Position numbers and translations under genes: made by a program. The notes below the pieces were generated by a model. That model had not been told where the DNA came from and made no database searches. It saw only the letters and a list, made by a program, of their open reading frames with translations. 64,000 nt of DNA from an uncultured Saprospiraceae bacterium (lineage in GTDB: Bacteria > Bacteroidota > Bacteroidia > Chitinophagales > Saprospiraceae): the NCBI GenBank assembly GCA_937923485.1, contig CALDUE010000031.1, positions 1 through 64,000 of the forward strand, given 5' to 3'. The stretch's first letter is position 1, and every line of letters begins with the position of its first letter. Of this stretch, positions 1,929-22,231 are shown in pieces.

Positions 1929-2232
1929 TAGAATGCTGATTAGAAAAATCAAATTCAAAAGTAGCTGGAACTGAACTGATTCAATATAGCAGTTTTGGGA
2001 CACAATATATAATTGCTGGATTAGCTTGAGTAGCGAAACGGAAGCTTGGTTGATAGATCTGGGCGTTTCATAATTCGTTAATAATATGTTAATTTATTGG
2101 CTTCGCTGTGGAATTCTTCATTTTCATTAGTTTTAGCATGAATTCTTTGGTGAATTCTCTTTCTGAAGTAGGGTAATCGTAATGCTTGCTAATTGTGTTA
2201 CGTCCTTACTATATACATCAAAAACTCTAGAT
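1929..2232. other. AT-rich divergent intergenic region
   Basis: This gap of about 300 bases separates the minus-strand DUF5682 gene from the plus-strand metzincin-like gene. It is visibly AT-rich, with short TTAATA-type runs around 2080-2100. I see no convincing TAnnTTTG promoter, hairpin or small gene. It marks the left boundary of the plus-strand segment that interrupts the DUF5691/MoxR/DUF5682 set. Confidence 0.4.
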
Positions 2233-4575
2233 ATGCTCCCCCTCCGTTTACTCCCTAGTTTTTCCCTAGTTGGCTTTCTATTAATCGCATTCCACACTAC
2301 AGTTTCGGCACAATGCTCCCTGGCTGAATTATTCGATGGTGCTGATGTCGTTTTGCAAGGTGAAATTGTTTCAGATACCGTCTATGAGGCCAATGGTTGG
2401 GTTTACACCAGTTACCTTATTGAGCCATGTACATCCCTAACAGATGATCAAACATGGAGTCGAGGCAAGCCTCTAGCAATCACTAGAATGGGAGGTGATC
2501 TAGATGGAGTGTCCTATTCGCGGCCTCATGGGCTAGAAATTTTTGGCGGAGAACAAGCTGTCTTTTTTCTAAAGTACATCGAAGGAGATACTATTACTCC
2601 AAACGATCTTACATCAGTACAGCCTATCTGCGGACAAGCGGGATTTGCAAAGTACCTTACCGATGACTGGAAGCCAATTGTCGCGATGGGTGAAACGGTA
2701 CTATCAGCTGTCGAATTTCGAACGCAAATGAAAGAGTATATTGAATTTGAGTATTGCGAAAGTTATCCATCTTACTATGTAGCTGCTCCTTCATTGACTT
2801 TTGAGGATGGGAGTCCAGTTGGAGGAATTGGTTTCGCTTATGAGAGCCACAATCAATTACCTGCTCAACCAATGACTATCGAGTTCCAATTTGAAGAGCC
2901 TGTCGCAGATCAAGCTCTCGATAATGCTTCCTTTTTTCTAAGTGAAGCCATCGACTATGATGCTGAATCAATTGATTCCTTTACAATCTCAGTCACTTAC
3001 TATTTAGATAGCTTCCCTACTTATTTAGACTCAATTGTTAGCCTTGGGACTGTAGATTATTCTTTTGATGAGTTGAGTGCATTAAGTAATGTGCGAGTAA
3101 TTCCAGTTGATCAGGCTGTTGATACTGATAAGTCTGCCTTGGATAGGATAATATATCAAGATGATACGCCTGGAAAAGAGGGATTTAAGAGAGCAAGAAT
3201 CACGGAGATCACCCCTGAGGTCGTGGCTGGTATTCGTAGACCTTTGAGTTTACCTAACCTCGCAGGAGCTCCAAATCCACCTACAGCTGCTAGGCCAGGT
3301 ATAGTAACCATTACGGGGACTGATTTCAATAACTATACGACGGCCGAATTAGGTGCAAAAATTCCTAATGATGTTAGAATTGAAATGATGAGAGAATCTG
3401 GGGATTTTACGGGAGTAACCATCTCTCCACTTGCAGGGGATATTATCTCTTGGACTGATACTGAAATCAACTTTTATGCACCTACATATGGTTATCTTGA
3501 CTACAGTATTAGCAATCCAAATATGATAGGTGAGAGTGGAGCCTTCGGAGGAAGAATTAGAGTAATAACTGAGGATGGAAATGATCAAGCTCCTTTTAGA
3601 ACAGAAGTTTTTTTCAATCAAAAAAGCAGTTCTAGCTTTGTGGCAAGTCGGGTAAACCCTTCTACAGATGATAATTCTTTGCGGAAACAATCGCACCGCA
3701 ACGGCCAATCAATAGAATCGACTGAGCGCGGCTATACATTTGTTTTAGCTCCAACATTTGTTACTTCTCTTCGAGATGGTGTCAGTGATCTAGCAGATGC
3801 AAAACTTGATCTTTGTGATGCAGCAGCAGAATGGACTAAAGCAACAGGTATACCCATAGATATTGTTGATACATGTCCCCCAGATATTAACTGCTCTGTT
3901 ATTACTGGCAATAGAATACCTGTCACCTCTACTGATGAGGATGCACTTGCGGCTGGTTTAACAAGTGTTCTGCCTCAGACATGTGCAATTGAAGAGCCAA
4001 GAGTTCAAACAGCTGAACTTAGATTTAACAATACGTTTGTGCCTCGTCGCTTCACATCTAGAGCTAGATCTTTTCTAGGACAAAAAGAAGTTATTTATGA
4101 TCAAGCCCTGCACGAATTTGGACACATTCTACAATTGCTTCACGTAGACAATAGAATTGAATTGATGTTTCCTTCAGCAAGTGCTGGCAACTCACTTACA
4201 TCTGCTGCGGTAGCATGTGGAATTCACGTGAATAATGTCTCATTATCATATCCTACCTTATGTGGAAATGTAATTCAGAAAGATTTTATACCTACGGATT
4301 GTGCTACTTCACCAATTCAGGAAATTAGCAATCGTGTGGATGGGGTCAAGGTTCTGTATGATCAAGAGTCTTCACGTTTACTTGTCGAAATTGAGTCACA
4401 AGTAACTAAACAACTTCAATTAACTGTTTATGATGTAATTGGAAGACCTGTCAAGGTTGAATCTTGTTCGATTGGTCTAAACACTATTTCTTTAGATGAA
4501 TCTATGACAGGGTTTTACAGTGCAGTATTAAACGGGTCTCAAACTCAAATAGCGATTCCTTTCGTTAAGAATTAA
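2233..4575 (+). CDS. Secreted metzincin-like zinc protease with T9SS C-terminal tail
   Basis: The track starts at 2182, but the ATG at 2233 gives a clean signal peptide (MLPLRLLP..., cleavage near VSAQ), so I prefer it (780 aa). The middle holds an IPT/TIG-like stretch (PGIVTITGTDF). The catalytic signature HEFGHILQLLH lies at about residue 627 of the shorter form, followed by a MFPSAS segment that could be the Met-turn. This fits HExxHxxxxxH zincins, but the glycine normal at position 8 of the metzincin motif is Gln here. The last 75 or so residues look like a type IX secretion sorting tail (LTVYDVIGRPV, ending in a short basic KN), so surface export is likely. A lipoprotein gene follows after 9 bases. 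Base composition is more AT-rich than the flanking minus-strand genes. Substrate unknown; it could also be a non-catalytic adhesin. Confidence 0.72.
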   Translation: MLPLRLLPSFSLVGFLLIAFHTTVSAQCSLAELFDGADVVLQGEIVSDTVYEANGWVYTSYLIEPCTSLTDDQTWSRGKPLAITRMGGDLDGVSYSRPHGLEIFGGEQAVFFLKYIEGDTITPNDLTSVQPICGQAGFAKYLTDDWKPIVAMGETVLSAVEFRTQMKEYIEFEYCESYPSYYVAAPSLTFEDGSPVGGIGFAYESHNQLPAQPMTIEFQFEEPVADQALDNASFFLSEAIDYDAESIDSFTISVTYYLDSFPTYLDSIVSLGTVDYSFDELSALSNVRVIPVDQAVDTDKSALDRIIYQDDTPGKEGFKRARITEITPEVVAGIRRPLSLPNLAGAPNPPTAARPGIVTITGTDFNNYTTAELGAKIPNDVRIEMMRESGDFTGVTISPLAGDIISWTDTEINFYAPTYGYLDYSISNPNMIGESGAFGGRIRVITEDGNDQAPFRTEVFFNQKSSSSFVASRVNPSTDDNSLRKQSHRNGQSIESTERGYTFVLAPTFVTSLRDGVSDLADAKLDLCDAAAEWTKATGIPIDIVDTCPPDINCSVITGNRIPVTSTDEDALAAGLTSVLPQTCAIEEPRVQTAELRFNNTFVPRRFTSRARSFLGQKEVIYDQALHEFGHILQLLHVDNRIELMFPSASAGNSLTSAAVACGIHVNNVSLSYPTLCGNVIQKDFIPTDCATSPIQEISNRVDGVKVLYDQESSRLLVEIESQVTKQLQLTVYDVIGRPVKVESCSIGLNTISLDESMTGFYSAVLNGSQTQIAIPFVKN

Positions 4576-4584
4576 ATTAGCTTC

Positions 4585-5103
4585 ATGATGTCATATTTTC
4601 GCTTGTTTTTAATCTTTACTTCTTTTCTCGTATTAAGCGCAATGAGTTGCGAAAAATCCGAGTCAAGTACAAATAGTCGTAAAGCTTCTCTTGCTATTCC
4701 ACTAGATACGTTCTGTTTGGACTTAGCCAGAACCTGCCCAAAATTAGCAGCACTAGCCGCTGCCTACCCCCCTAAACTTGAACCTTCAGATGGCAGTCAT
4801 TTAATTCATGCCGAGTTACTCAACTATCTCTTGGACACTGTTGCGAACCCTCAAAATTATTTCAGAGAGTTGCCAGGACCTTGTCCTGGGATAACACGTT
4901 CACAAATCCATTGCGCCATAGGCATACCAAGGGACAGTTTGGGAGTCCTAGAGATGGGAAGCGAAATTTTACTTGGGGATTTTTATTCCTATGCTCGCGA
5001 TCCCGAATATGGACTTGCGCCAACCAGATTTTGGACAAAAGCAGGTTACATCCCTATATTCTTTTATAATAGTGGGGATACGCTGGTTGTAATTTCTCAG
5101 TGA
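4585..5103 (+). CDS. Small predicted lipoprotein, unknown function
   Basis: A 172-residue protein with a hydrophobic N-terminus followed by SAMSCEKSES, which reads as a Bacteroidota-type lipobox with Cys 22 as the lipidated residue. ATG codons at 4585 and 4588 are both possible starts. The mature part has several Cys residues (FCLDLARTCP, PGPCPGITRSQIHCA) that may form disulfides, consistent with periplasmic or surface exposure. I recognise no domain. It follows the metzincin-like gene by 9 bases on the same strand, so the two are probably co-transcribed, and it converges on the MoxR ATPase gene with only 32 bases between stops. A partner or inhibitor of the protease is possible but purely inferred. 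Confidence 0.6.
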   Translation: MMSYFRLFLIFTSFLVLSAMSCEKSESSTNSRKASLAIPLDTFCLDLARTCPKLAALAAAYPPKLEPSDGSHLIHAELLNYLLDTVANPQNYFRELPGPCPGITRSQIHCAIGIPRDSLGVLEMGSEILLGDFYSYARDPEYGLAPTRFWTKAGYIPIFFYNSGDTLVVISQ

Positions 5104-5135: not shown

Positions 5136-6245
5136 TTAGCCTCCATCCCCTTTCCCAGCCCCAAATTCCGTCAACGCCATATACCAATCGCGCCACTTCC
5201 CAGGCCGCTCCTTTAGTACTCCTTCGACGTAGCTTCTCCAAACGGCGCCATCACGCTCTTCATCGCGGATTACTGCTCCACGAAGAGAAGGAAGATAGTC
5301 TTTCACCTGCGGAATCCCATCGCCAAAATGTGCAGCCAAACTGACGGCATTTTCGACAACACTAATCGCTTCTGCGGTGCTGAGGCCAGCTCCTGGTTGT
5401 TGAACTTTCGTACTTCCATCTTCGGTGACGCCATTGCGTAATTCGCGGAAGATGGTGATGAGGCGTTCGATTTCTTCGACTGCCGAAGAGGTTTCTAAAA
5501 TAGCGCTGCGATCTCCTAGGCTGCTTCGTTCGCGGACGATCCGCAGCTCTTCTGCTAGGCTTGATGGCGAAGGCAAAACGACTGTATTGAAACGACGACG
5601 AAGGGCCGTCGAGAGTTCGTTGACACCACGATCTCGCTCGTTTGCAGTAGCGATCAAATTGAAGCCTGGGATCGCTTGGACCTCCGTGCTCAATTCAGGT
5701 ACAGGTAAAGTCTTTTCACTCAAAACGGTGATCAAACTGTCCTGTACTTCACTTGGAATACGCGTTAATTCTTCAATCCTTACGATCGATCCTCTTTGCA
5801 TTCCAGTCATTACGGGGCTTGGTACTAGCGCCGATTCTGATGGACCTTTGCTAATTAGCTGAGCATAGTTCCAGCCATACCGCAACGCATCTTCGCTTAG
5901 TCCAGCAGTACCTTGAACCAATAGGGTAGAGTTACCTGATATCGCAGCGGCAAGGTGTTCGCTCACCCATGTTTTGGCGGTTCCAGGGACGCCCGCGAGT
6001 AGCAATGCACGATTGGTCGTCAAGGTGGCCACGGCTACTTCCATTAAGCGTCGATCACCAATATATTTTGGAGAAATTTTCACGCCCTTGGCGACCTCGC
6101 CACCCATGAGGTAGTCTACCACGCGTTTTGGCGAAAGCTGCCAACCGACAGGCTTTTTGTCCTTGTCTAATTTGGCCAGTGCTGCGAGTTCCTTTGCATA
6201 GGTCTGCTCAGGATGAGGCCGAAGAATTTGGGGCGTTTTTGCCAT
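5136..6245 (-). CDS. MoxR-type AAA+ ATPase (YehL-like)
   Basis: This AAA+ ATPase of the MoxR clade has Walker A GVPGTAKT, a Walker B-like IVRIEEL segment (Glu in place of the usual first Asp), sensor ATANERDRG and an arginine-finger stretch LRRRF. The conserved blocks around the Walker A (SEHLAAAISG, LVQGTAGLSEDALRYGWNYA) are those of the ATPases that travel with DUF5691, DUF5682, SWIM and VWA proteins. The track start at 6272 is a TTG overlapping the DUF5691 stop. I prefer the ATG at 6245, which gives MAKTPQILRPHPEQ, close to how I recall family members beginning. MoxR ATPases usually remodel a VWA-bearing partner; none is in the window. The gene contains one exact copy of the 14-bp interspersed word (6125-6138), read as LSPK. 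Confidence 0.85.
   Translation of the reverse strand: MAKTPQILRPHPEQTYAKELAALAKLDKDKKPVGWQLSPKRVVDYLMGGEVAKGVKISPKYIGDRRLMEVAVATLTTNRALLLAGVPGTAKTWVSEHLAAAISGNSTLLVQGTAGLSEDALRYGWNYAQLISKGPSESALVPSPVMTGMQRGSIVRIEELTRIPSEVQDSLITVLSEKTLPVPELSTEVQAIPGFNLIATANERDRGVNELSTALRRRFNTVVLPSPSSLAEELRIVRERSSLGDRSAILETSSAVEEIERLITIFRELRNGVTEDGSTKVQQPGAGLSTAEAISVVENAVSLAAHFGDGIPQVKDYLPSLRGAVIRDEERDGAVWRSYVEGVLKERPGKWRDWYMALTEFGAGKGDGG
6125..6138 (+). repeat. Interspersed 14-mer GTTTTGGCGAAAGC, exact copy 1
   Basis: Exact match, inside the MoxR ATPase gene and read there as LSPK. Followed by TGCC, matching the frequent TG extension of the word. Confidence 0.95.
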
Positions 6246-6268
6246 GGTGCCAAGATGAGGACGATTGC

Positions 6269-7564
6269 TCAATTCATCACCGAAAATTCGGAGGCAATCC
6301 GCTGTCGAGCGAGCATCATCGCAACGAGCGCATTCAAGGTCTCCAATTGCGTCTCCAGTTTTAGCGAAAGCAGATGACCAAAGGCCATCGGATTTAACTT
6401 ATGCGGATAGCGACCAGCCACCGTCTCCGCAGGAGGAGCATAACCGTGAACGACTTCATTGGCCAATTCCTCCGAAAGGTTTGGGCTGAATGGATGAGGA
6501 TTGGCCGCTATAAAAGCAATAACCATTGGGTCTCTCCAGCCTTTTGGATAGAAATCATGCGCGTAGTCCATCAGGTTCGCGTAAGACGTAGCGTCTAAGG
6601 CTGAGGCTAGTTTCGGAAGAATTTTCTGTCCTTGAAGCAATCTGTCTTGACTCCGAATTGCGTGTTGTAGTAGGGTAGCGGCCGCAGTGGAGTTCTTGCT
6701 ACTTATTGCGGCTTTCGCCAAAACCTCGAACGTGTCGCGTTGGTCGCAACCTGCCGGAATGCTAGACAGCACCTCCTCAGCTCTGGCCATCATTTTTTGC
6801 TTGCGTCCCTCGTCGAGCATACATTCTAAGCGAAGTATTTCTAGGTCAGTCAACTCACCTTTCTTCGAGAATAGACGGACAAGTAATTCAGGGTTTACAG
6901 CTTTCGCCAAAACCCCTTTATCCAGCACCGCTTGCAATAGCCCGAAGGCCTGTGGACTCACTTTCGCGGCGGTCATCAGCTTGCGGATTCGATTGATTAA
7001 CTCCGTGTCTTTTATCTGTGCCCGTTCGGCGCGCGACAATTCACTCCACCAAAACTGGATGTATGCGTCGCGTTGTTTGACGGATTTCGGGAAGGGATCT
7101 GCTTGCAAAAAGGCAACTTTCCGCTTGAACGTAGGGTGTTTTAGCGCAAGCCAAAGCCCATGACGACCTACGAGCGCGTATGCATTTGCTGTAACGTTGG
7201 CCTTGCGAATGACGGCTTCTAAATACCAGACAATTTTACCTGTGGGCACAACCAAACCATAATCAAACAGTGTCTGCACATCGGCGCTTCCGCGAAAGGC
7301 AAGCGATGCTTCGAGGTAGTGGAAAATGTGCTTATCAAGGAGATGATAGGAAGGGTGATCAGGGGCAAGCTCTGCCACGCGCACTTCTTGAATCGCCGTT
7401 TTGCTAAGGTTTACTCGTTGGGCAAGACTTTTCGCTGAAAGCAACGCAAGCGCTTCTTCTGCTGGGCTTCCCGCATGCTGCATGAGTTGCGCCGCCAAGG
7501 TCTGTGCCTGGTCGTCTAACGGCTGTCTAGACAGTCCGATGATGGCGGCGGTTGCGAGATTCAT
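6269..7564 (-). CDS. DUF5691 family protein (MoxR-associated)
   Basis: A 431-residue, Leu/Ala-rich, mostly helical protein starting MNLATAAIIGLSRQPLDDQ. Its architecture and position directly upstream of a MoxR ATPase fit DUF5691, a repeat-like helical family found in yehL-type clusters. I rely on this context more than on a diagnostic motif. The stop codon lies 23 bases before the preferred ATPase ATG, and overlaps an alternative TTG, so the two are one transcription unit. Three copies of the 14-bp word lie within it: exact at 6711 and 6900, both read as VLAKA, and a one-mismatch copy at 6358. That is the densest cluster of the word in the window. The function of the family is unknown; a scaffold for the ATPase is a reasonable guess. 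Confidence 0.62.
   Translation of the reverse strand: MNLATAAIIGLSRQPLDDQAQTLAAQLMQHAGSPAEEALALLSAKSLAQRVNLSKTAIQEVRVAELAPDHPSYHLLDKHIFHYLEASLAFRGSADVQTLFDYGLVVPTGKIVWYLEAVIRKANVTANAYALVGRHGLWLALKHPTFKRKVAFLQADPFPKSVKQRDAYIQFWWSELSRAERAQIKDTELINRIRKLMTAAKVSPQAFGLLQAVLDKGVLAKAVNPELLVRLFSKKGELTDLEILRLECMLDEGRKQKMMARAEEVLSSIPAGCDQRDTFEVLAKAAISSKNSTAAATLLQHAIRSQDRLLQGQKILPKLASALDATSYANLMDYAHDFYPKGWRDPMVIAFIAANPHPFSPNLSEELANEVVHGYAPPAETVAGRYPHKLNPMAFGHLLSLKLETQLETLNALVAMMLARQRIASEFSVMN
6358..6371 (+). repeat. Interspersed 14-mer, one mismatch (GTTTTAGCGAAAGC)
   Basis: G6 is replaced by A. Inside the DUF5691 gene, read as LSLK on the minus strand. Confidence 0.75.
6711..6724 (-). repeat. Interspersed 14-mer, exact copy 2
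   Basis: GCTTTCGCCAAAAC on the plus strand. Inside the DUF5691 gene, read as VLAKA. Confidence 0.95.
6900..6913 (-). repeat. Interspersed 14-mer, exact copy 3
   Basis: GCTTTCGCCAAAAC on the plus strand, 189 bases from copy 2. Inside the DUF5691 gene, again read as VLAKA. Confidence 0.95.
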
Positions 7565-19570: not shown

Positions 19571-20191
19571 ATGAAGTATGCAATTATACCATTTTGCCTT
19601 CTGCTTCTACTCTCCATCGCTTGTTCGAATTCGAACCAAGTCGAAATAAAAAACGACGATGGAGTAGTGGTAGAACGCTATGAACTTAGCAAGGAAGATT
19701 CGACCATGCACGGAAGCTATGAAGCCTTCGACGAGAAAGGCCAGCTCATTGAAAAATCAAGCTACGCTAAAGGAAAACTAGACGGGGTCCGCACACTTTA
19801 CTATCCCAGCGGTGGTGTCCAATACGAAGAGACTCACCTCAATGGCGAGTTTGAGGGGATCTACAAAGCGTATTATCCTGAAGGTGAGCTGGAGTTGGAA
19901 GGTAAGTACGTCGACAATAAAATGACAGGTATTTGGACGGCCTATTATCCCAATGGGACCAAAAAAGAGGCTGTCACCTTTGTCGACAACGAGGAAAACG
20001 GCCCCTTCACAGAGTGGCATGCAAGCGGCACACTTAAGGCTGAAGGCTCTTATGCCAACGGTGATAATGAGGAAGGCGAACTCGTGCTCTATGATCTTAA
20101 TGGCAAGGTGAACAAGCGAATGTTTTGCGAAGGAGGGATTTGTAGAACCGTACCGTTGGAAACCGAAGAAACAGCATCAAATGAAGAGTAG
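19571..20191 (+). CDS. MORN-repeat lipoprotein
   Basis: The track frame opens at 19511, but the ATG at 19571 gives a textbook lipoprotein leader, MKYAIIPFCLLLLLSIACSN, with the lipidated Cys after SIA. The mature protein is a run of MORN-like repeats (HGSYEAFDEKGQ, DGVRTLYYPSGG, EGIYKAYYPEGE, TGIWTAYYPNGT, NGPFTEWHASGT), a fold often labelled YwqK-like in databases. These form elongated beta-hairpin ladders; the role in Bacteroidota envelopes is unknown. Its last 11 bases overlap the porQ start, which implies translational coupling and raises the possibility of a link to T9SS assembly (inference). Confidence 0.85.
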   Translation: MKYAIIPFCLLLLLSIACSNSNQVEIKNDDGVVVERYELSKEDSTMHGSYEAFDEKGQLIEKSSYAKGKLDGVRTLYYPSGGVQYEETHLNGEFEGIYKAYYPEGELELEGKYVDNKMTGIWTAYYPNGTKKEAVTFVDNEENGPFTEWHASGTLKAEGSYANGDNEEGELVLYDLNGKVNKRMFCEGGICRTVPLETEETASNEE

Positions 20192-21254
20192 TCTCATACT
20201 TTCCCTTATTGGGCTACTACTGTGTCTTACACTGACTGTTTCTGGACAGGTGCTTGGTGGACGGTATGCTTTTGTTTTTTTAGAGCAATCTCCTTCAGCG
20301 CAAACAGCTGGTTTGGCTGGATTTAGTTTGCGTCAGGACGGTCGTGATCCTGCGATCGCGCAGTTCAATCCAGCATTGCTTAATGCAAATACAGCTGATA
20401 TACTTCATGTAAGTCAGGACTTCTTTCCTGCAGGCGCTGGTAGGTCTATCGTGAGTTATGGTCGCCAAATTGGGGAACGAAAAATTGATGTTAGCGCCAA
20501 TCTTCACTATGCTTCTTTCGGAGAATTTGAGGGTCGTGATGCAGCTGGCATTGCAACAGGAACTTTCTCGGCTCGTGAATATGCCTTAGGAGTAAGCGCA
20601 GCACACCAATTGGCCGATCGCGTGCGCGTAGGCGCCACCGTGCAGGTGCTAGGCGGAAGCATCGAGTCTTTTAACAGTTTCGGAGCTGCCGTCAGCGCAG
20701 GCCTTACCTATATTCCTGACTCTGCAGGATTGACTGTATGGGGCATTCAAATGCGTCATGCTGGACATGTAATTGATGGATACACGGAGCAACAGGACCC
20801 GCTGCCTTTTAACATCAGCGTAGGAGTGAGTCGCAGACTTAAATACTTACCCCTTCGATTTGGGGTGCTTTATCGTCGAATTGATCGATGGAACATCTTA
20901 TTTGATGATCCAGATCGTAGAGAGTCGGATGGTTTTCTTTCTAACGAGCCTGTTGAGCGAGGCGCGACCTCTTTGTGGTTTGACAATTTCGCAAGGCACT
21001 TTTCTTTCAATGCAGAACTCTACCTCGGGAAGCAGGAAGTTATTCAGCTGCGTGCAGGGTATGACCATCAGCGTCAGCGTGAAGGGGAAGTCGAGGAGTT
21101 CCGAAGCTTGGCTGGTTTCAGCTTCGGTCTTGGTGTCAACTTGCGCAAATTCCGATTGGACTATGGGCGTACCGTGCAGCATATCGGGGGCGGAACCAAT
21201 CAGCTAGGAGTTCTGATAGATTTTAACCCAGGCACTCGCGCTCCCAAGACATGA
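20181..21254 (+). CDS. porQ: Type IX secretion system protein PorQ
   Basis: An outer-membrane beta-barrel protein of the PorQ family, 357 residues, with a signal peptide (SLILSLIGLLLCLTLTVSGQ). It has the family-typical start LGGRYAFVFLEQSPSAQTAGLAG, then DPAIAQFNPALLN and repeated amphipathic strands to a C-terminal strand (GVLIDFNPG). PorQ works with PorU, PorV and PorZ in the attachment complex that processes and anchors T9SS cargo at the cell surface. porU and porV are at the far right of this window, and at least two cargo genes (2.2 and 9.9 kb) are also present. It overlaps the MORN gene by 11 bases and the next gene by 4. Confidence 0.9.
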   Translation: MKSSLILSLIGLLLCLTLTVSGQVLGGRYAFVFLEQSPSAQTAGLAGFSLRQDGRDPAIAQFNPALLNANTADILHVSQDFFPAGAGRSIVSYGRQIGERKIDVSANLHYASFGEFEGRDAAGIATGTFSAREYALGVSAAHQLADRVRVGATVQVLGGSIESFNSFGAAVSAGLTYIPDSAGLTVWGIQMRHAGHVIDGYTEQQDPLPFNISVGVSRRLKYLPLRFGVLYRRIDRWNILFDDPDRRESDGFLSNEPVERGATSLWFDNFARHFSFNAELYLGKQEVIQLRAGYDHQRQREGEVEEFRSLAGFSFGLGVNLRKFRLDYGRTVQHIGGGTNQLGVLIDFNPGTRAPKT

Positions 21255-22231
21255 CTTCTGTAGAAAGCTTGGCGCTTGAGCGACTTGAGCAATTCAAAAT
21301 AAACGAACAGCGCTGGATCAACATGCAGAGCGGTATCGACCTGCTCGAACGGTGGTTAGAAGATCAATTGGTGTATGGATTGGCTGCGCTTGAAAGTGAT
21401 GCGGATACTCGTATTGAGGCAATCGCGGCGCAGTTGGTCGACAATCATTTGCCAGGAGCTGCTTCTTCTTTGAGAAAATTGGCTCCACTGATTGGAATCG
21501 AAAAGGAGTGGGAGCAGGCTGTTCTTAAAGAGTTTGGGTATTGGCACGTAATGGCCCGTATGTCTCGGAAGCTTAAACAGCTCTCTGACGACCAACTTGG
21601 AGGCCTTTTACTTACTCTAGGTCATCGCTTTCGCAAAACAGACATTCTCGCGTCTGATCCGCTTCCCGAGCAATATTGGACTTGTGTAGGACTCGAGGAG
21701 GGAGACGATCAAAATGTCTACTATCGGCGCACGTATTGGCGTGGTGCCATAGCAGAGCACGCAGGTGTGCAGCTCGTCTTCCAGTATGGCGCTCCTGTTC
21801 CGCTGGGTCAAACCGAAGTAGGTACTTCAAGCAAGATGACCATTCATGCGTATCCAGGAGGTTTGCCTGGCAGGCTTGAATTGCCAGATCAAATTGCGAT
21901 CAGTTCGAAAGAGGCCTGTCCGCATCATTTTGCAACGTGGCAAGCCCAACAAGATGCCAATGAGGCCATCCTTATTCGTCAGCCTTGGTCGCGATCTATA
22001 CCTGTGGCTGTCGGTCCACTTACGGTTCGTTTTGACGAAAGTCGAGAAAGCTTGCACCTGCTAGATGTAAAAGGTGAAGAGGTTATTCAGCCTTGCGGCA
22101 AAACCGACGATGCGAGTTGGACGCTTCTAAGCCTTGCGGCCAAAACCCCCGTAACAGTCTTCGGGCAATTTGAGATGGGAAACCTGATGTTACACTCAGT
22201 ATGGCTAGGAGAGCGGCTGCATGCCCTTTAG
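21251..22231 (+). CDS. SWIM-family C-terminal-region protein lacking the SWIM zinc finger
   Basis: I see a strong resemblance in pattern to the region that follows the zinc finger in bacterial SWIM proteins of the yehQ type: a GIDLLERWLEDQLVYGLAAL helix, then IAAQLVDNHLPGAASSLRKL (compare the family's ARMVDxQAPGLA), then a YYRRTYWRG segment and HAYPGGLPGRLEL. No CxCxnCxH SWIM finger exists in the protein, and the start codon overlaps porQ (ATGA), so the finger is truly absent rather than missed. Yeh-type SWIM proteins are encoded with MoxR, DUF5682 and DUF5691 proteins, which lie about 14 kb away. It may therefore be a displaced component of that system. Function unknown. Confidence 0.62.
   Translation: MTSVESLALERLEQFKINEQRWINMQSGIDLLERWLEDQLVYGLAALESDADTRIEAIAAQLVDNHLPGAASSLRKLAPLIGIEKEWEQAVLKEFGYWHVMARMSRKLKQLSDDQLGGLLLTLGHRFRKTDILASDPLPEQYWTCVGLEEGDDQNVYYRRTYWRGAIAEHAGVQLVFQYGAPVPLGQTEVGTSSKMTIHAYPGGLPGRLELPDQIAISSKEACPHHFATWQAQQDANEAILIRQPWSRSIPVAVGPLTVRFDESRESLHLLDVKGEEVIQPCGKTDDASWTLLSLAAKTPVTVFGQFEMGNLMLHSVWLGERLHAL

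Follow-up and report, generated by a model that had tools for sequence, protein, structure and literature searches.

A SWIM-family protein without its zinc finger as a probable displaced subunit of the MoxR/DUF5691/DUF5682/VWA system in Saprospiraceae

Described MoxR-VWA systems and operon-encoded SWIM proteins

MoxR ATPases act on a bound target together with a VWA partner, as in RavA-ViaA, CoxD-CoxE and Mg-chelatase (PMC7159879). RavA-ViaA and CoxD-CoxE each combine a MoxR ATPase with a VWA protein of the CoxE type, as does the system described here, which differs from both by extra DUF5682, DUF5691 and SWIM subunits. The MoxR-vWA ternary conflict systems share with it a MoxR and VWA pair joined by further components, but the MoxR of the window (the whole 64,000-nucleotide stretch of DNA analysed, from an uncultured Saprospiraceae bacterium) is, unlike theirs, below the bpMoxR cut-off, and the text describing them mentions neither SWIM, DUF5682 nor DUF5691 (PMC7159879). 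The literature searched contained no mention of DUF5682 or DUF5691 and nothing on the system.

In Escherichia coli, YehL, YehM and YehP are homologs of MoxR, DUF5682 and VWA_CoxE, respectively (BLAST E 7e-76, 1e-40 and 9e-69), and the SWIM protein YehQ is encoded beside them; no DUF5691 gene is found among the annotated yeh neighbours. The sequence-only reading had called the window protein yehQ-type. This label was not borne out, as comparison of YehQ with the family, by the family HMM and by hhalign, gave only the finger in common, although YehL, YehM and YehP do match their counterparts. The part kept in the window protein is thus the part that YehQ does not detectably share.

The closest described relatives are the SWIM proteins of MoxR-DUF5691-DUF5682-VWA operons in Actinomycetota, Betaproteobacteria, Abditibacteriota and Saprospiraceae, which are homologous over the full post-finger region and co-occur with the same partners. 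In the first three groups the operon is contiguous, with the order SWIM-(DUF5691)-MoxR-DUF5682-VWA. At loci outside the family (Saprospiraceae/Lewinellaceae, judged from named records with MoxR genes identical or nearly identical to those of relatives), the SWIM gene either immediately precedes DUF5691-MoxR-DUF5682-VWA or is found a short distance ahead of MoxR-DUF5682-VWA. A finger is seen in every SWIM homolog found outside the family but one, a roughly called gene of 849 amino acids from Nocardia (L263). The window protein differs from these operon proteins in having no zinc finger and in being encoded apart from the other system genes.

The finger-less gene and its predicted structure

The window gene (21251-22231, + strand) encodes a finger-less SWIM-family protein of 326 amino acids, here called SWIM-C. 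Its start overlaps the stop of porQ by the four nucleotides ATGA (21251-21254, + strand), and translational coupling is expected from this arrangement; the same 4-nt overlap is made with rnc in several finger-less relatives. The upstream porQ gene (20181-21254, + strand) is intact (NCBIfam NF033711, E 1.6e-77) and is not part of the system. Downstream of SWIM-C a 166-nt gap is followed by a PcrB-family gene. From stop to stop the open frame has only 334 codons, closing 24 nt upstream of the start, and an in-frame upstream finger therefore cannot be hidden. The CxCxnCxH motif that defines SWIM zinc-finger proteins (PF04434) is absent from the protein, which had no match in Pfam, NCBIfam or PADLOC. 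The earlier statement that the finger is truly missing, made from the porQ overlap, is thereby upheld.

The alignment of SWIM-C to SWIM proteins of 430-490 amino acids covers its entire length and falls in the part behind their finger, as the sequence-only reading had recognised, and SWIM-C retains the invariant columns G43, G124, P245 and D272. The best homologs have E 1e-26 in related genomes (phmmer) and 2.7e-27 in family genomes. Against the family profile the value is E 5e-88, but that profile includes SWIM-C itself and the independent evidence is the phmmer matches. Judged by these alignments, the similarity to the SWIM post-finger region is far above chance, and no other family matched SWIM-C in the profile searches. 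A scan for related loci with the window protein as query returned no relative.

No full-length SWIM homolog was found by profile search elsewhere in the window genome, and on contig C192 the VWA gene has no SWIM gene next to it, where a separate full-length protein would have contradicted the initial proposal; the genome is 85% complete and a second, fingered copy could be unassembled. Transfer of the finger to another protein was considered and rejected: all that the profile detects is a SWIM motif of 25 residues within a 1269-amino-acid ORF on contig C84, and this ORF is also present in the congener G001, which does not have SWIM-C.

The AlphaFold2 model of SWIM-C (pLDDT 87.6), read with DSSP, has two parts. 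An N-terminal helical bundle is predicted for residues 4-134 (21260-21652, + strand), which in the alignment follow the finger and linker of relatives, and a C-terminal beta region, possibly tandem OB-like, for residues 141-325 (21671-22225, + strand). In a fingered relative (predicted pLDDT 94.5) the finger forms a separate N-terminal unit. Foldseek gave no match below E 1e-3. OB-fold proteins recur among the best PDB matches (RPA70 1jmc, LEF-3, SSB, HIN domains and eIF5A), with a best PDB E of 5e-3; RPA70 1jmc reached a probability of 0.99 but TM-scores of 0.24/0.38. The fingered relative also matches ZSWIM8, and a sequence search of solved structures with the family profile gave no match. 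The models weakly suggest a helical bundle joined to a tandem OB-like domain; that the post-finger domain might bind nucleic acid is a guess drawn from these weak fold matches.

Co-retention of the system components

Four of the five components lie within one 22-kb stretch of the window genome, and the VWA gene is on contig C192. The DUF5682 gene (1-2003, - strand) is cut by the contig start (PF18934, E 5.7e-163 at 9-1862). The MoxR-type AAA ATPase gene (5136-6272, - strand) matches AAA_5 (E 5e-37) and is 54-65% identical to those of relatives. The DUF5691 protein (6269-7564, - strand) is short (431 amino acids) and divergent (PF18944, E 7e-12, 46 bits). Between MoxR and DUF5682 there are two genes on the + strand, at 2182-4575 and 4585-5103, encoding 797 and 172 amino acids with no Pfam family above cut-off. 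PADLOC gave nothing of note on the system proteins.

The SWIM-C gene is about 14 kb from MoxR, and in most relatives too the SWIM gene is unlinked to the other system genes. Within the family the genes are scattered: in one case out of 25 the distance between SWIM and MoxR was no more than 3 kb, and seven family genomes had no two system components within 20 kb of each other. Two genomes (G155, locus L183, and G170, locus L184) have a compact operon with a fingered SWIM gene and a second, finger-less gene elsewhere. A gene just upstream of MoxR-DUF5682 in another genome (G010, L188:2561-3757) encodes a C-terminal PycTM (Pycsar effector-like) domain.

Two samples were searched, one of 61 related genomes and one of 160 family genomes. 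SWIM homologs, MoxR and DUF5682 were found in exactly the same 24 of the 61 related genomes. DUF5691 was detected in 21 of these 24 carriers and in no other genome of the sample, and VWA in 23 of them and in the congener G001. One genome (G036) has two copies each of the SWIM gene, DUF5682, MoxR and DUF5691. The profile search of the 160 family genomes gave 102 carriers; DUF5682 and/or DUF5691 occurred in all 102 and in 2 of the 58 non-carriers, both of them draft genomes (Fisher p 2.6e-41, a value that ignores kinship, related genomes not being independent samples). G001 is the only other genome of the genus and has VWA but none of the other four genes, most simply explained by an assembly gap covering one region. 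It had been proposed from the sequence that the protein may be a displaced member of the system, to be checked by whether genomes without it are also without MoxR and DUF5682, and both samples agree with the proposal. The scattered genes are kept together, and the components therefore form one functional unit, independently of operon structure.

SWIM-C is accordingly read here as very probably (probability about 0.87) the SWIM subunit of a MoxR/DUF5691/DUF5682/VWA (CoxE-type) machine, out of its ancestral operon and stripped of its finger but still functional. By analogy with MoxR-VWA pairs described elsewhere, ATP-driven remodelling or loading of a target would be the task of the AAA ATPase together with the VWA protein, and DUF5682, DUF5691 and the SWIM protein would be substrate or adaptor subunits. 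The coupling to porQ would do no more than supply SWIM-C with a promoter and translation.

Recurrent loss of the finger and the neighbourhood of the gene

Among the 24 homolog loci outside the window in the 61-genome sample, 19 were fingered (mostly 430-490 amino acids with an N-terminal CxCxnCxH, one being cut by a contig end) and five were finger-less like the window protein. In the alignment the finger-less proteins start at the domain after the finger and a variable linker and extend to the end. Matches starting only after the finger were found in about 20 genera of the 160 family genomes. A total of 82 homologs was inspected, 38 finger-less and 44 fingered; as the 38 had been picked for being finger-less, the counts are descriptive. 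Eight fingered genes but no finger-less ones were directly upstream of DUF5691.

The phylogenetic tree requires about 10-11 changes of finger state by parsimony, of which 3-4 are demanded by branches with good support, and the AU test rejected one common origin of the finger-less state (p about 1e-7). Fingered and finger-less forms of the gene occur together in one genus, where they make up a clade with full support (G088 and G356 versus G286 and G367). A finger that has decayed in place is seen in G182, where the four zinc ligand positions read S, S, D and Y and the gene is still behind rnc. Loss of the finger is thus recurrent in Saprospiraceae/Lewinellaceae and not unique to the window genome, a point that the sequence-only reading did not contain.

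The trees bear on the origin of the gene. The SWIM-C tree puts the window protein, on a long branch, with actinobacterial and proteobacterial outgroups, which leaves its exact origin unsure. This position and the congener without the gene could indicate horizontal acquisition from a distant group, with or without the rest of the system and with the finger lost before or after the transfer. The placement is not starred (84), however, and the window MoxR, also a long branch, groups with Saprospiraceae inside the Bacteroidota set with starred support. Such a transfer is improbable, and would be compatible with SWIM-C being a displaced subunit of the machine.

A decaying SWIM remnant on its way to loss would account for the missing finger, for the short and divergent DUF5691 and for the long MoxR branch of the window. 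In finger-less genomes DUF5682 scores also tend to be lower (Mann-Whitney p 4e-4) and MoxR branches longer (p 0.002), and in the 61-genome set DUF5691 was undetected, short or weak in five of six finger-less genomes, all three comparisons being uncorrected for relatedness or genome-wide rate. One short form, of 277 amino acids, has its middle missing (G027, L191:4561-5394). Against decay, the ORF of SWIM-C is intact, its core residues are conserved, its predicted fold is confident and finger-less forms are spread over the genera mentioned above. The finger-less genes are furthermore under purifying selection, with dN/dS of 0.05 and 0.17 in the two close finger-less pairs with computable dS, none of the window genus. 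Decay towards loss is very unlikely.

The most frequent upstream neighbour of the inspected homologs is rnc, usually as fabF-rnc, which directly precedes 29 of 38 finger-less and 14 of 44 fingered genes. An RNase III helper belonging to the rnc operon, its co-occurrence with the MoxR system being a by-product, would fit this arrangement and the OB-like fold matches. It is hardly credible, because genomes negative for the system do not have the gene although rnc is a housekeeping gene, because the gene belongs to the MoxR operon in bacteria outside the family, and because the window gene is no longer beside rnc but is found 14 kb away from MoxR. In the window genus RNase III itself is extended at the C-terminus by about 370 residues with a high content of K, R, S and P, and is 626 and 604 amino acids long versus about 250 (L195:1489-3369 on contig C126 of G000, and L196 of G001), and fabF is no longer upstream.

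Least likely of all is an accessory factor of the T9SS or cell envelope working with PorQ: the ATGA overlap and the presence of the T9SS in the genome, with porU and porV also in the window, would agree with it, but porQ precedes not one of the 81 other homologs inspected, 43 of the 82 come after rnc, and presence of the gene tracks MoxR/DUF5682. The check proposed earlier, whether the gene always follows porQ in relatives, gave a negative answer, and the suggestion that this coupling would link the system to the cell envelope is not sustained; the T9SS link most likely reflects nothing more than where the gene happens to lie in the window genome.

For the displaced subunit of the MoxR machine, contact with the machine or with its target may be made through the post-finger domain, because this domain is retained and under selection once the finger is lost. 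Tentatively, the helical bundle and tandem OB-like domain would be the essential part of the SWIM protein, binding nucleic acid or protein, and the finger an auxiliary binding module that became dispensable where the gene was displaced. A broader and more doubtful picture is that of a five-subunit MoxR-VWA machine, commonly encoded in bacteria by an operon, scattered over the chromosome in Saprospiraceae yet kept as an obligate set, whose SWIM protein has dropped its finger again and again, leaving a stand-alone nucleic-acid-binding subunit of helical and tandem-OB parts. The finger-less form might then be a second functional state of the machine in which target recognition is altered or relaxed, and the shrinking of DUF5691 would run in parallel. 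The system, including yehL, yehM and yehP of E. coli, is widespread and almost unstudied. The natural finger-less variants point to the indispensable part of the SWIM subunit, and the expectation is that the conserved post-finger domain, not the finger, would carry the contact with the machine.
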